Assembly: GCA_951828515.1 (NCBI GenBank)
Contig: OX639992.1
Location: 372,001-436,000 of the forward strand
Direction of reading: 5' to 3'
Origin: an uncultured Poribacteria bacterium
Lineage (GTDB): Bacteria; Poribacteria; WGA-4E; WGA-3G
Length of the DNA: 64,000 nt
The notes beneath the pieces were generated by a model. The model was not told the origin of the DNA. It saw only the letters and a program-made list of their open reading frames with translations, and searched no databases. Both the position numbers and the translations under genes were made by a program. Below are positions 9,762-16,964 of the stretch, piece after piece. Numbering within the stretch: position 1 is the stretch's first letter; each line of letters begins with the position of its first letter.

Positions 9762-10299
9762 TGAACGCACCATTTATATATTTCACACCCTTCTCACCAT
9801 ACTGTTTGTCTACAGCAGTTTGGTAGGGTGTGAAAAATTGGTTTGGGAAGACAGTCTCGACTCGCCGAGCCAACTCGGTCTGGCAGTCGTAGACGCACTG
9901 AATCGAAAAGATATTGAGCAGTTGGATCGTCTACGTGTGCAGCGCGAGGCGTATCTCGATTGGATTTGGTCCGCGTTCCCCGCAAGCCGTCCGCCGAACA
10001 ATTTTCCGGGCGACTTTGCATGGTCGAATCTAAATAAGAAATGTAACCTTGGTATGAAAAAGTGGATTGCTCAGTTCGGAGGTCATAATCTGAAGTTCGT
10101 TGACATCCGTTTCGATCGACCCGCGGAGACTTATGAAGGCTTCCGACTTTTGCGTGGAACCGTCTTGACGTTCCAAAACGTCGCTGGCGAAAAACGGGAA
10201 TTGGAGATTCTCGGCTCGGTAGTTGTTAAAAACGGTAAATATAAGTTACTGAGTTGTCAAGTACCCCCCGCTAAAGCAGGGGGCTTGTTAGAGTGTTAG
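9748..10299 (+). CDS. Small lipoprotein, C-terminus replaced by IS605-type sequence
   Basis: A 183-residue lipoprotein of unknown function. The start is a GTG with AGGATGG upstream; translation overlaps the preceding lipoprotein by 14 bp, suggesting coupling. The signal peptide ends in SSLVGC (Cys near 28). Residues 40-170 look like a compact alpha+beta domain (NTF2-like folds have similar size), not recognised further. The last 12 codons (VPPAKAGGLLEC) are read from the end hairpin of the IS element. If the IS is removed just after TGTCAA, the frame would continue as FPIRKL and stop, so the native protein was probably of almost equal length and may still function. Confidence 0.75.
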   Translation: MRGSNERTIYIFHTLLTILFVYSSLVGCEKLVWEDSLDSPSQLGLAVVDALNRKDIEQLDRLRVQREAYLDWIWSAFPASRPPNNFPGDFAWSNLNKKCNLGMKKWIAQFGGHNLKFVDIRFDRPAETYEGFRLLRGTVLTFQNVAGEKRELEILGSVVVKNGKYKLLSCQVPPAKAGGLLEC

Positions 10300-10420
10300 C
10301 TCCAACAAGCCAGTTGTAACAACTGATTTCTCGTTTCACAGAGGATGGTATCCCATACCTCTCCACGAAGGGCGCAAGCCGCCCTGTGTAAGATATTCAA
10401 AGCCGCGTTGTGGTCGCGGT
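10262..10420 (-). ncRNA. Predicted omega-RNA (reRNA) of the TnpB element
   Basis: In TnpB systems the guide RNA is read from the 3' part of tnpB through the right end of the element, with the guide taken from flanking DNA. Here that would run on the minus strand through the end of tnpB and the hairpin at 10264-10283. The guide would then begin at about 10261, reading into the lipoprotein gene (ACTTGACAACTCAGTAACTT or close to it). Only the hairpin and position are visible; length and the 5' end are inferred. Confidence 0.4.
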
Positions 10421-11516
10421 CGAGTTTCAACCCACAGAACTGACAATGGAACACACGCTCAGACAACTTCAGTTTAATAGGCGATTTCTGGCAGCAGTGC
10501 GAACAGGTTTGACTCGTATGGTGCGGTGGCACTTGATGGAAATGTTTGCCATCGCGCTTTGCGACCCAACTGCACCAGTCAAAGAACGTACCCCAAGACG
10601 CGTCAGAAATAGACTTCGCAAGGTGTCGGTTCTTGACCATATTGCTGGGCTTGAGTTTCTCGGCAACAACGGCATCAAACCCTTTGTGGTGAAAAAGTTT
10701 GTAAGCCGTTTTCGCGATAAAATCAAGACGTTGACAGGCAACAATATCTGCCTGTTTCGCCAATGCGTCCTTTGCCTTATACCAGCGTTTACTTCGGTAG
10801 TGCTTGCGCGAAAGGTCGCGATGCAAGCGTATCAACTTCTGTTCAGCTTGGCGATAAAAGCGTGGGTTGCCCTCTTTTCTCCCTTCGGAGGTCGTCAGAA
10901 AATCGTGTGTTCCAACATCTATACCACAAGCAGACTTTGGAACACATTTCAGTGTGTCCGGCACTTCACAGACGATAAAGCAATACCAGCCGCGGGCCGT
11001 CTTTTTCAACGTGACCTCTTTCGGGTCTCCGACGATTCGACGGTGTTGGCGGATTTTGACTTCACCGAGTTTCGGTACTTTCAAGCCGTTATACCGAGTG
11101 CCTGTGGAGCGGATAGGATTCTGACGGACACGTTCACCCGTCTTGAGTTTGTGTTTTCGCAAGTTCCACGTCAGCGAGCGAACAGAACGCTTGAACTTCG
11201 GATACCCCTTTTTCTCCGCATTCTCTCGACATCGGCGTTGGAAATGCTCATGCGCGGCGTTAACGCGTTTGATCGTAGACACCTGCATATCTTGCGAATG
11301 CTCAGAATAGTGAGAGGTCGTGGCGCGGAGTGTTTTCAGATGGTTAATCTGGTCATACATCGACACAGACTTACGACCATAGTCCCACATCTGCGAACGC
11401 ATCTGGAGCATGTAGTTCTGCAACTGCTTTTGATGGCGCAACTCCGAAAAAAGCCAACGTTCTTCTGTTTTCGTAGGCTTCGCACGGAACTTGAATGTCA
11501 TTTTCATGATTTTCAC
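10296..11516 (-). CDS. tnpB: TnpB RNA-guided endonuclease (OrfB, IS605 family)
   Basis: A 406-residue ancestor-type relative of Cas12 that uses an RNA from the end of its own element to cut DNA. All catalytic positions look intact: RuvC-I Asp in GIDVG (D200), RuvC-II Glu in VVAEKL (E286), a four-Cys zinc ribbon (C338, C341, C358, C361) and RuvC-III DRDHNAALNI (near 366-375). The N-terminal helix-turn-helix region begins MTFKFRAKPTKTEE. Length is normal, so the enzyme may be active. Biological roles known for the family are retention of the element at its donor site and occasional domestication. No tnpA accompanies it. Confidence 0.95.
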   Translation of the reverse strand: MKIMKMTFKFRAKPTKTEERWLFSELRHQKQLQNYMLQMRSQMWDYGRKSVSMYDQINHLKTLRATTSHYSEHSQDMQVSTIKRVNAAHEHFQRRCRENAEKKGYPKFKRSVRSLTWNLRKHKLKTGERVRQNPIRSTGTRYNGLKVPKLGEVKIRQHRRIVGDPKEVTLKKTARGWYCFIVCEVPDTLKCVPKSACGIDVGTHDFLTTSEGRKEGNPRFYRQAEQKLIRLHRDLSRKHYRSKRWYKAKDALAKQADIVACQRLDFIAKTAYKLFHHKGFDAVVAEKLKPSNMVKNRHLAKSISDASWGTFFDWCSWVAKRDGKHFHQVPPHHTSQTCSHCCQKSPIKLKLSERVFHCQFCGLKLDRDHNAALNILHRAACALRGEVWDTILCETRNQLLQLACWS

Positions 11517-12664: not shown

Positions 12665-12687
12665 CCGATAGTATCTGACGTAAGGCA

Positions 12688-12716
12688 GGGACGACTCTTG
12701 GGGTCGTCCCTTTTTT
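12688..12716 (+). terminator. Rho-independent terminator after the TonB gene
   Basis: GGGACGAC (12688-12695) pairs with GTCGTCCC (12703-12710) around a 7-base loop, followed directly by TTTTTTG. Position, 23 bp after the TonB stop, fits termination of the uptake module. Confidence 0.9.
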
Positions 12717-12780: not shown

Positions 12781-15700
12781 TCACTCTGTTTTGAGTGCAT
12801 ATACGCCTCGTCGGACCTTTACGATTTCGCCTGTTTTTACAAGCCGCGTGAGTTCATTATTTATCGCTTTTGGATGTCCCTGAATAACAGAAACGAGTTC
12901 TGCTGTCTTTTTCTCACCATCAGCAAGGAGGGAGCGGATTTGCTCTTGATAAGGGACACGTAACTTTTTCACGCCCCTAAGTCTATGTAGCATGCGCGTT
13001 GTTTGTCTTTCAGAGTATCCCAAGACACGCCGTACCTCTTCTCTGCTGGATTCGGCATTTAGGTTCTTACGTTCTGTTTCAAAACGCTGGCGTGTAGCTA
13101 TCACCTCAGGAAGTTTGTCTAACCCACCAGCGACTTCAAAATCTTCCCAGTCGAACAGGAGGGTCTCAGGTCTATCGGTAATATCTGGCAGTGGAAAGCT
13201 TGTAATCAACACAACCTTCTTACCTGGCAAGCGATTCAATCCGGTACGTCCGATAATCTTTGAGAGTAAATCAACAACATGTTGTTCATAAACACTTTGG
13301 ACGCGCTCATCTTTATAGCTGTAAGCATCTGTTTTTATGTCATAACGGAGAGGTTTCTCGTCGTTTCCAAATAGAATCTGTGCTCGCCGCCAAATAATAC
13401 CAGGTTCCCAGCGTGGCATGCCAACTATCCAAACGACTTGTGTTTCTTGAAAAGCGGTCTCCAGACGCTCCAACTTTTTGAAATCCGTTATGAAACAGAC
13501 GTTTTCCTTTTCTGCGACCTCTGCCAAATGTTCAATAATTAACTGATCGGTGATGATCGCATGCTTAACACTCGGATTTCGCTCAATTTCTTCTTGGATA
13601 CCGAGTAAGATCCGCTGTCCGGTTTTAGAGACTCCAATAACATCCCAACTGTTGTTATATTCTAATATTGTTTCCAGTGGATAAGTACCTGTGCGGATCT
13701 GAAAAACTTGATTTCCCGCAATCCAAGCAGTCGGTTTGATGCAAATAGCCTCGATTTCTTCATCTGGAAACACATTCCGCAAATCTTGCTTTGAAAGGGT
13801 TGATGACATCAGCAGAAGGCGTTTAACGCTTGGGTGTAGCCCCGGTGGCATCCAGAACCATAAGACTTTGTGCTGCCATATCATGGGAGCGTCGGCATCG
13901 CGTGTGTAATACGTAAAGAAATGCTTCAGCTGATGCCAGAGTGTCCAATTCGGATACCGACAAACAGCGGGAAATTTCCCAATGCTCTGGACGGTTTCTA
14001 TGTCCAAGATGCCCAGCCGAATTGCCTGCTCCATGGATATCTGTATTTTTATGTCTTCATTAGGCAGAAAGGACTTGAGTTGGAGAAAGGGCACCCCATT
14101 CGCCATGAATCTATCTGCGGCGTTATCATCTAAAGGGATATGGGTAGTCGCGCCTCCCTCAAACTCAATGCTGAAGTGCGCCAATTCTTTTCCAGTTTCT
14201 GCATCAACAGTCCAACGTTCCACTACCTTACCCGGCAAATTGACCAAGCCCATTTGTCTGACGAGTTCCGCTTCGTGTTGTTGGAAGGCCTGCATTACGA
14301 CGCGAATTCGACCGACAGCACTATCATTAGGATAGTCTTTAATTTCCAATGCGTCCAGTAGAGCCTGGGCAAAGTTACCTAAGATATCCCCTTGCCAGTT
14401 GACACACCATTCCTCTAATGTATTTTTTGATATATCAGTAAAAAAAAACAAACCGTGTGCATGCACTTCATCAATGATACAAAGCTGCTGTGTATCATTG
14501 ACTTCCTCAAGAATCTCTTCGACCAGTTCAGAGTATTGCGGATCGAAAAACTGATAAGGTGTGCCAGATATTTGCGCCTTAGCGTGTTTTAGGGCGGTAG
14601 GTTGTGATAAATACCCGCGTTGCTGACACGCTGTATAGACTCGACACTGCGGACAGATGATTTCATTCGGGTCTCCACCCTTTTTCTCAAGTGCCTCACA
14701 CCGATCATAATCCTCACAGACGTTTCCGTGTTGAAAAGGATTCGCCATGCGCGCCTCAACGGGTATCTCTTTAACCTCGTTCCACCGGTACCGTCGCGCT
14801 CTCCAGCGTGCTACCGATGGTAAGTTTTGCTGATGAAAGAGGTTTACTGCCGCTTCCACCGTCCAGAATCCGGCGTTTAAACTGATCGCACCGCCACTGA
14901 GAACATAGGCACCTACCGCGTGGCTTTTCCCCGCGCCGGTCTCGGCAATAAGTCCAGTGATGCGTGCAGTTCCCTTAAAAGCACGCTGTATCTGAACTGC
15001 ACTCTCTTCGAGAGTTTCATAAACCTTATGGATGTGTTCAGGTTTCTGCAGCACTGGTAATGGACGTTTTATTGCTAAAGGACTCAATTTCCCTTCCCGT
15101 ACTGCGAGGACTTTATCGGATATAAGCAAACCTGCAGCGGGTAGCAGTGGCAGAATACCGGTATCGTCCCAGACATCCGTTATTTGTGTTGCTTCGGTTG
15201 GCAACCCGGCATCAGACATAGATGCCCGAATCCACACTGCCCCGTTGTCCTCCCATAACCACACGCGTCTCTCCTCAACTCTGCCTACATGCTGAGTCCA
15301 GAGATGCAAACCGTTCTCTTGGCGGACATAAGAAAAACCACGCTTCATAAACGCCTCTTTCGCGAGGTCTAAACGGAGTGAACCGAGCGATGGTGGTGCA
15401 AGAGTGCCGGATTGGGAATCGGATTCCAGTATACGCTGTCGAGGTGGTGCTGGTTCGTGAAGCATCGCCCGGAGAGTATCAATAAAGGGAAAGATGACCT
15501 CCTTGGAAACCACGGGTGGGTCTAACAAATTCCCAAGTAGAATCTCGTAGCGTCCATCCCAACGACTATAGCCCTTCTCTCCTAAGATTTCGAGATACAC
15601 GTCTTGCTGGTGTGGGTTTTCCACGGTTGGTGAGTGTTTATAGATATACAGTCTGTCCTCTTCAGCATTTGGATGGAGATAGTCTGGGATTCTACAAGAA

Positions 15701-16176
15701 AAACGCAATCCACTGGACTTTGAAAGTGTCAGAAGCGGATTCGCAACGGCGTTGACGAGTGGCTCAATACAGGCAATGACGGTATCGGGTGCGGCACAGA
15801 GTGCCTCGTATTTAAAATCGAAATCGTGCCATCGTGCGCCATCGCGTTCCGACGGGATACCGGTATATACCTGAAGCCCCCACGATCTGTGCCACTGTCC
15901 GATTCCCCAATCTTCTATTTTTTGGCGTTTCAAGAACCTTTCGCCACCAAAAGATCTTGGACCGCGATCGTTCTCAGGAGCGCGACCGATCGGCATAAAA
16001 GAGATGTCTGCCTGCTCCAAGTCATAGAGTCTCACAGGACATCTGTGAGTGCAATAGACTGTGAACTGATAAGGAAGCCCCGCGTACGGTGCGGGTGTTA
16101 CGATGGTGCTACGCTGTCGAAGTGGCTTCTCATGACGTTCGTGGCAATATTGAATAAGATCTTTCAAGGCGTTCAT
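12781..16176 (-). CDS. Large primase-like/helicase-like protein with Cys cluster and C-terminal winged helices
   Basis: An 1131-residue protein, not recognised as a named family. Residues about 1-240 resemble an archaeo-eukaryotic primase/PrimPol domain: HDFDF near 117-121 as a possible DxD motif, SKSSGLRFS near 152-160, and a strand-rich EILGEKGYSRWDGRYEILL. Residues from about 395 form a helicase-type ATPase: Walker A AETGAGKS at 411-418, then five cysteines (487, 493, 508, 511, 517) placed as an Fe-S or zinc cluster is in XPD/DinG helicases, and Walker B with DEVH at 569-572. The motif LLLMSSTLSKQDL matches helicase motif III/IV spacing. The last ~110 residues hold two helix-turn-helix units. 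It is a single gene, convergent with the TonB terminator. Replication of a lost mobile element or a defence role are both possible. Confidence 0.65.
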   Translation of the reverse strand: MNALKDLIQYCHERHEKPLRQRSTIVTPAPYAGLPYQFTVYCTHRCPVRLYDLEQADISFMPIGRAPENDRGPRSFGGERFLKRQKIEDWGIGQWHRSWGLQVYTGIPSERDGARWHDFDFKYEALCAAPDTVIACIEPLVNAVANPLLTLSKSSGLRFSCRIPDYLHPNAEEDRLYIYKHSPTVENPHQQDVYLEILGEKGYSRWDGRYEILLGNLLDPPVVSKEVIFPFIDTLRAMLHEPAPPRQRILESDSQSGTLAPPSLGSLRLDLAKEAFMKRGFSYVRQENGLHLWTQHVGRVEERRVWLWEDNGAVWIRASMSDAGLPTEATQITDVWDDTGILPLLPAAGLLISDKVLAVREGKLSPLAIKRPLPVLQKPEHIHKVYETLEESAVQIQRAFKGTARITGLIAETGAGKSHAVGAYVLSGGAISLNAGFWTVEAAVNLFHQQNLPSVARWRARRYRWNEVKEIPVEARMANPFQHGNVCEDYDRCEALEKKGGDPNEIICPQCRVYTACQQRGYLSQPTALKHAKAQISGTPYQFFDPQYSELVEEILEEVNDTQQLCIIDEVHAHGLFFFTDISKNTLEEWCVNWQGDILGNFAQALLDALEIKDYPNDSAVGRIRVVMQAFQQHEAELVRQMGLVNLPGKVVERWTVDAETGKELAHFSIEFEGGATTHIPLDDNAADRFMANGVPFLQLKSFLPNEDIKIQISMEQAIRLGILDIETVQSIGKFPAVCRYPNWTLWHQLKHFFTYYTRDADAPMIWQHKVLWFWMPPGLHPSVKRLLLMSSTLSKQDLRNVFPDEEIEAICIKPTAWIAGNQVFQIRTGTYPLETILEYNNSWDVIGVSKTGQRILLGIQEEIERNPSVKHAIITDQLIIEHLAEVAEKENVCFITDFKKLERLETAFQETQVVWIVGMPRWEPGIIWRRAQILFGNDEKPLRYDIKTDAYSYKDERVQSVYEQHVVDLLSKIIGRTGLNRLPGKKVVLITSFPLPDITDRPETLLFDWEDFEVAGGLDKLPEVIATRQRFETERKNLNAESSREEVRRVLGYSERQTTRMLHRLRGVKKLRVPYQEQIRSLLADGEKKTAELVSVIQGHPKAINNELTRLVKTGEIVKVRRGVYALKTE

Positions 16177-16482
16177 GGTTTAAAAAGATAGGGTGCGAAA
16201 ACCTTAGAGACTGTCAAGTTAGAACAGACAATGACTGGTAGGGCATCATATCACACATCTGCTTTTTAGTCAAATTCTTAAGGCGAGTAAAATCGGTGAT
16301 AGCAAGACTTTAGGCAGACATTTATGTGGGGTAAAAAATAACAGAATGTATTAAGTAAATCGTATGAATATGGATTTTTGTTTTAACTTAAGAAAACCTG
16401 GGTAAAGATCTATTTCTTTCTGAATTACTCCGCAAACTTATCAAGAAAAATAACACTTTCATACTCTTTTTGCAGATTTAAT

Positions 16483-16512: not shown

Positions 16513-16758
16513 TTAAAACCGTATTAGGTCTATATATTATACTATAACTATAAAAAATATTGGCTAAATATAACTTTAAGCAGTTTACCCGGCAGTCACC
16601 TTAGGCTAACACGTTGGATCTAATCAGCTTACCCTCGGCGCAAATAAAAAAGATTCAAGGGAGGAGACGCTTGCATAGAGTTGCCTGAAAAAACGAGGCA
16701 TAAATTCAGGTGGTGAGAGGTAAACTTGCAAACGCCGTCAACTGAACATGACTGAATC

Positions 16759-16890
16759 AGGACTTACGCAAAATCAAAGAATTCAGTCTATTATGGCGCA
16801 ATCAGTGCGGTTAGGGGATTTGGTCTGGGAATAGACCAAATCCATTCCTCGTATTACATTCCGCACCTACCGGGGACGTGCGTAAGTCCT
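16759..16890. mobile_element. 132-bp MITE with AGGACTTACGCA inverted ends (copy 1)
   Basis: Perfect 12-bp terminal inverted repeats (AGGACTTACGCA at 16759-16770, TGCGTAAGTCCT at 16879-16890) enclose non-coding DNA. A second copy lies at 29164-29280, sharing 28 of the last 30 bases, including CCGCACCTACCGGGG. Similar ends are known on cyanobacterial and other IS-derived MITEs. No transposase for it is in the window. Confidence 0.85.
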
Positions 16891-16964
16891 ATGAATGCTG
16901 TATTGATAGTGTGTCGTGGGGTAAACCATCGCGTAAGGTAAATTATCTTTTCAGAGAGGTGTAT

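Follow-up and report, generated by a model that had tools for sequence, protein, structure and literature searches.

The closest structure to the N-terminus of the protein described here is that of ORF904 from the archaeal plasmid pRN1, which combines a PrimPol domain, a helicase and a winged helix. In ORF904, the primase, the helicase and the C-terminal DNA-binding domain follow one another in the same order as in our protein, the helicase being of a type other than XPD/DinG-like SF2. Compared with ORF904, the family studied here has an XPD/DinG-like SF2 helicase with a Cys cluster, is chromosomal, occurs in many copies and is motor-degenerate. The Fe-S SF2 helicases XPD and DinG resemble residues 387-1025 of our protein both in fold and in the Cys cluster located between Walker A and the DE box, but our protein lacks motif VI, is fused to a PrimPol-like domain and is lineage-restricted. 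The diversity of AEPs and their SF2 fusions have been described (PMC5862659). Thermus Ppol of ICETh2 is a mobile-element primase-polymerase encoded with a helicase; it limits the uptake of environmental DNA and affects foreign DNA uptake instead of replicating its element (PMC7693054). Ppol and its helicase are encoded by separate genes, Ppol is not known to be motor-degenerate, and it is likened to our protein by description only.

We analyzed a window of 64,000 nucleotides, the whole stretch from position 372,001 to 436,000 of contig OX639992.1 from an uncultured Poribacteria bacterium. The ORF at 12781..16176 on the minus strand, with its ATG at 16176 and 1131 codons, was found to be real. 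It encodes a degenerate PrimPol/Fe-S-type helicase/winged-helix protein of 1131 aa (12784..16176, minus strand; all the gene parts given below are on this strand). Structure prediction and homology to plasmid-type relatives both support the order of its parts that a first-pass annotation proposed, namely primase-like, Fe-S-type helicase and two helix-turn-helix (HTH) units. That annotation knew of no family with such an order; Pfam, PHROGs, NCBIfam, PADLOC and PDB sequences gave nothing except the C-terminal winged helix, whose match is AbiEi_4. The architecture of PrimPol, Fe-S-type SF2 helicase and winged helix is recognized as a whole by none of the family libraries searched. No publication dealing with this Poribacteria family turned up in our search, which covered the literature in part.

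Residues 1-245 (15442..16176) are predicted to form an AEP/PrimPol-fold domain with HDFDF as motif I (117-121), KSSGLR (153-158) and WDGR (206-209). Residues 1-262 alone were modelled by AlphaFold with a pLDDT of 76 and a pTM of 0.75 (alignment of 48 rows). The top structural match of this model was pRN1 ORF904 (1rni, Z 8.5, 170 residues, 3.7 A) and NrS-1 PrimPol reached a Z of about 7.5; the first ten rows were all AEP (Z 7.2-8.5), the best non-AEP row having a Z of 3.6. The AEP-like fold spans residues 39-243. Since Foldseek alone gave weak E-values (best 0.007), the AEP assignment rests on the agreement of the leading rows and on the motifs D118/D120, R158 and D207. No AEP sequence profile matched the N-terminus in Pfam, PHROGs or NCBIfam, and none was found against BT4734_N. 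Thus, the AEP-like N-terminus put forward from the sequence holds in the AlphaFold model and not in the profile search, and we assign an AEP/PrimPol-like fold to this predicted model with medium confidence. The AEP motif I (hhhDhD/E) is present, D118 being found in 60/60 members and a second acidic residue (D/E) in 41/60. Motif II is defined as sxH in the AEP superfamily (PMC5862659); at the presumed place of its His all 60 members carry R158, as do the plasmid-type relatives L174 and L155, which also have an R there. Homology of the N-terminus to BT4734_N, whose motifs look alike by eye, was rejected as profile comparison gave no support. The domain is followed by a linker (246-386; 15019..15441), and the corresponding region of L174 contains a CxxC/zinc-ribbon-like stretch.

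The whole protein was modelled with a pLDDT of 73 and a pTM of 0.68 (alignment of 43 rows). The best solved matches of residues 387-1025 (13102..15018) are XPD/DinG (Foldseek E 6e-8 to 1e-6), with 472 residues aligned at Z 9.9 and 5.5 A, and the model points to a two-RecA SF2 fold of XPD type. Walker A, AETGAGKS (411-418; 14923..14946), is intact in the window copy, and Walker B reads DEVH (569-572; 14461..14472). The five cysteines noticed between them, C487, C493, C508, C511 and C517 (14626..14718), are indeed there and form a cluster of the Fe-S type as in the plasmid-type relatives, conserved in those relatives and in most full-length ones. Motif VI is degenerate (973-980; 13237..13260): the window protein has KIIGRTGL where the plasmid-type relative has QAILRLR, and does not fit the Q..xR.R of XPD/DinG. 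The strongest-conserved block of the family, ITDRPETLLFDWEDFEVAGGLDKLP, covers residues 999-1024 (13105..13182). A clear assignment to a known housekeeping helicase, which would have overturned the first-pass annotation, did not emerge: the fold is XPD/DinG-like, but members were found in two genera only instead of near-universally.

Both C-terminal HTH units seen by eye were recovered, a first HTH at 1045-1066 (12979..13044) and an AbiEi_4/ArsR/Zalpha-like winged helix at 1073-1131 (12784..12960), predicted by AlphaFold with regulator-like fold matches. Membership in the AbiE toxin-antitoxin systems was considered and rejected, because the PADLOC AbiEi matches concern the short C-terminal winged helix only and the AbiEii partner gene is absent beside the window gene.

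Outside the family proper, a weak match in genome G018 (locus L127) corresponds to a protein of 993 aa, which carries a BT4734-like primase domain and shares the Cys cluster of the window family. The L127 region is an integrated plasmid with ParA, a Rep3-type initiator, an integrase and a DNA methylase, as judged by reading the sequences by eye; an initiator near L175, related to that of the L127 region, is Rep3 by Pfam. Profile comparison between the window family and this 993-aa plasmid primase-helicase covers 439-1003 with an E of about 6e-14, the shuffled and reversed controls giving at most 1.7% and the match staying at 94% with the Cys cluster masked. The Cys cluster and the second helicase domain are thus homologous, and the primase domain of L127, a BT4734_N, has no profile similarity to the window N-terminus. 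A search with the 993-aa protein retrieved motor-intact relatives in G069, G081 and G026. L174 (G081) matched the window family over its whole length, with 100% probability, an E of 6e-47, 871 columns and 28% identity. In the Poribacteria relatives of the L174/L155 type (G081, G069), domains and motifs are arranged identically, no motor motif is lost and the terminal HTH is a different one; the window family is set apart by its FDWEDFEV block and by a winged helix resembling AbiEi. Descent from mobile element to chromosome is argued from the intact motifs and the genomic context, the latter being read by eye for the L127 relative and less firm for L174 and L155; the plasmid-type relatives are few, and the branch leading to L174/L155 is long on the tree. 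In G049 (L176 1-3114, L177 264-4118), a related helicase half is fused to DUF3854, which suggests that the plasmid-type helicase is a module able to pair with more than one kind of primase. No relatives of the family were found in phage, plasmid and IMG/VR viral collections, nor relatives of the BT4734-type protein in IMG/VR.

The protein had been called lone on first reading, which turned out to be wrong, since the window gene is one of nine copies in its genome. Five of these encode about 1130 aa, and four have open frames of 786-1013 aa in which the middle is missing or divergent. Fifty of the 84 genomes of the phylum gave a match, with the winged helix alone in G047 and the plasmid-type protein alone in G018; family members are present in 48 of the 84, all within two genera of one Poribacteria family, and genomes farther away within the phylum have none apart from one winged-helix match. 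The named loci are from Candidatus Poribacteria assemblies. L068, the copy closest to the window gene (81% identity), has surroundings unrelated to those of the window gene, and the DNA similarity stops at the ORF, indicating that copies have moved. Within three genomes, the closest paralogues share 64-76% identity and none of the compared copies exceeds 76%; therefore, movement was not recent in those genomes. Several copies have the same position in different genomes, and some are broken by stops. At corresponding places of two genomes, L038 (1467-11408) and L040 (1481-11417) each contain three family genes in tandem; these differ in length, and one of them encodes about 795 aa and has no ATPase/Cys middle. 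In L069 (7977-10214), about 1.2 kb have been deleted in frame, so that residues near 577 are joined to those near 939, both sides being still 94% identical to L043.

The copies occur as single genes, and the genes around them (named by eye) are varied and mostly of housekeeping type. Their nearest neighbours, 55 genes, fall into 39 clusters, and no neighbour gene conserved beside family copies was found. The window copy is surrounded by genes for TonB, a TonB receptor and RND efflux instead of replicon or integrase genes, which bears out the earlier description of a single gene without phage or plasmid partners. No defence neighbours were found in the window except one TnpB-like IS605 protein (OrfB/TnpB-like, Cas12f in PADLOC; 10296-11516, minus strand), 1.3 kb past the 3' end of the gene. 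A strong terminator-like hairpin (12687-12711) separates this 3' end from the convergent TonB gene. A dispersed repeat of about 140 bp (16755-16892) lies upstream of a TolC-type gene; most, if not all, of the 38 genus genomes searched contain matches to parts of it, at several places per genome. A clean empty site at the efflux operon was sought in relatives and not found, the region being rearranged. The gene is preceded by a sigma-70-type promoter with an extended -10, TTGACT-17 nt-TATGAT (16245..16273), about 69 nt before the ATG. Many paralogues, located at unrelated sites, are preceded by the same type of sequence. In 0.78 Mb of the larger family loci, 11/11 sites of the pattern precede family genes in the sense orientation and the controls (reversed pattern, shuffles) gave 0 sites; the pattern was derived from the same upstream regions, several of the 11 sites are orthologous, and one precedes a start truncated by a stop.

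Walker A, Walker B (DE) and motif VI (Q..xR.R) occur together in 0/61 chromosomal members in the joint alignment, motif VI calls depending on the alignment of a divergent region. All three occur together in 4/4 plasmid-type relatives upon inspection of the alignment, by which the outgroup variants TPAQTGKT (Walker A) and LAIDE (Walker B), missed by strict patterns, were counted as intact. Walker A is kept in 18 and the DE box in 19 of the 61 chromosomal members. The window copy differs from the L174 type by the loss of motif VI. A family-wide loss of this motif was considered and rejected, as L080 and L046 keep Q..xR.R without the DE box. The minimum number of state changes on the tree is 7 for Walker A, 9 for Walker B and 5 for the Cys region, and several lineages miss the ATPase/Cys middle. 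Whole-gene dN/dS (Nei-Gojobori) is 0.17-0.37, motor-dead pairs included. By part, it is low for the Cys cluster and for the winged helix (0.05-0.2 in many pairs) and highest for the ATPase part. This purifying selection makes pure decay unlikely, and the dN/dS values together with the pattern of motif loss fit proteins in use whose motor is no longer needed.

Between the options of a relic replication protein and a single-gene defence or repair factor left by the first-pass annotation, the former is the better one in view of the motor-intact homologues and of the related type in an integrated plasmid, although a relic in the sense of mere decay is unlikely given the selection. As the copies are selected and no examined motor is intact, these sponge-associated Poribacteria seem to have given the replication protein of a plasmid another role. 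We give a probability of roughly 0.55 to the reading in which a mobile element's replication protein entered the chromosome, multiplied there and came to serve as a DNA-binding factor whose motor is crippled. The ancestor, encoded on a mobile element, would have combined a PrimPol primase with an XPD/DinG-like helicase of the Fe-S type and with HTH domains. The primase-like and C-terminal parts would still bind DNA, and the helicase part would be mainly a scaffold that may bind ATP and hardly hydrolyses it, making the protein a single-gene DNA-binding factor acting on replicating or foreign DNA, without processive helicase activity. Its most likely single use, which we propose tentatively, would be to limit or control incoming replicons related to the source of the protein; roles as a regulator or as a repair accessory share the remainder.

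Other readings were weighed against this reuse as a DNA-binding factor. The window copy could still be active, since it keeps Walker A, DEVH, all five cysteines and both motif-I aspartates (D118/D120), and its nearest relative in G028 gives a dN/dS of 0.20; it might then be an enzyme of replication restart or repair acting on blocked forks, with motor-dead paralogues as regulators or decay products. We consider this rather unlikely, as its motif VI is KIIGRTG, position 120 is N in its nearest relative L068, from which all three motif VI residues are missing as well, and 6 of the 38 genomes of its genus have no family member by this profile, a patchy presence ill-suited to housekeeping repair. 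The motor-crippled copies may instead act as a dominant-negative immunity system of which the paralogues are the repertoire, either by binding incoming related replicons at their origins or forks, or by mixing with the incoming primase-helicase, replication being blocked in both cases; taken jointly with this block, such a system seems unlikely.

A family of transcription regulators, in which the two C-terminal HTH units bind DNA and the primase-helicase part senses single-stranded DNA or nucleotides, would agree with the dispensable catalytic motifs and with the constrained, regulator-like winged helix; the scattered neighbours offer no common target and the protein is very large for a regulator, making this improbable. 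Finally, the unrelated surroundings of the window copy and L068, with homology confined to the ORF, the common promoter at unrelated sites and the copies broken by stops could be explained if each copy were a single-gene mobile element moving with its own promoter, purifying selection being then selection for movement. This is quite doubtful, since the paralogue identities indicate no recent copies in the three genomes, several copies stay in place, and no integrase or transposase partner accompanies the gene, the pairs compared sharing only ORF and promoter.

The joining of PrimPol, Fe-S-type SF2 helicase and winged helix is described here. On the favoured reading of a reused replication protein, a protein replicating mobile DNA would have given rise to a large family of chromosomal genes under selection, whose motors were lost repeatedly and whose binding parts were kept. 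This Poribacteria family makes it possible to test directly if plasmid replication proteins find a second use in bacteria, as immunity factors or regulators.
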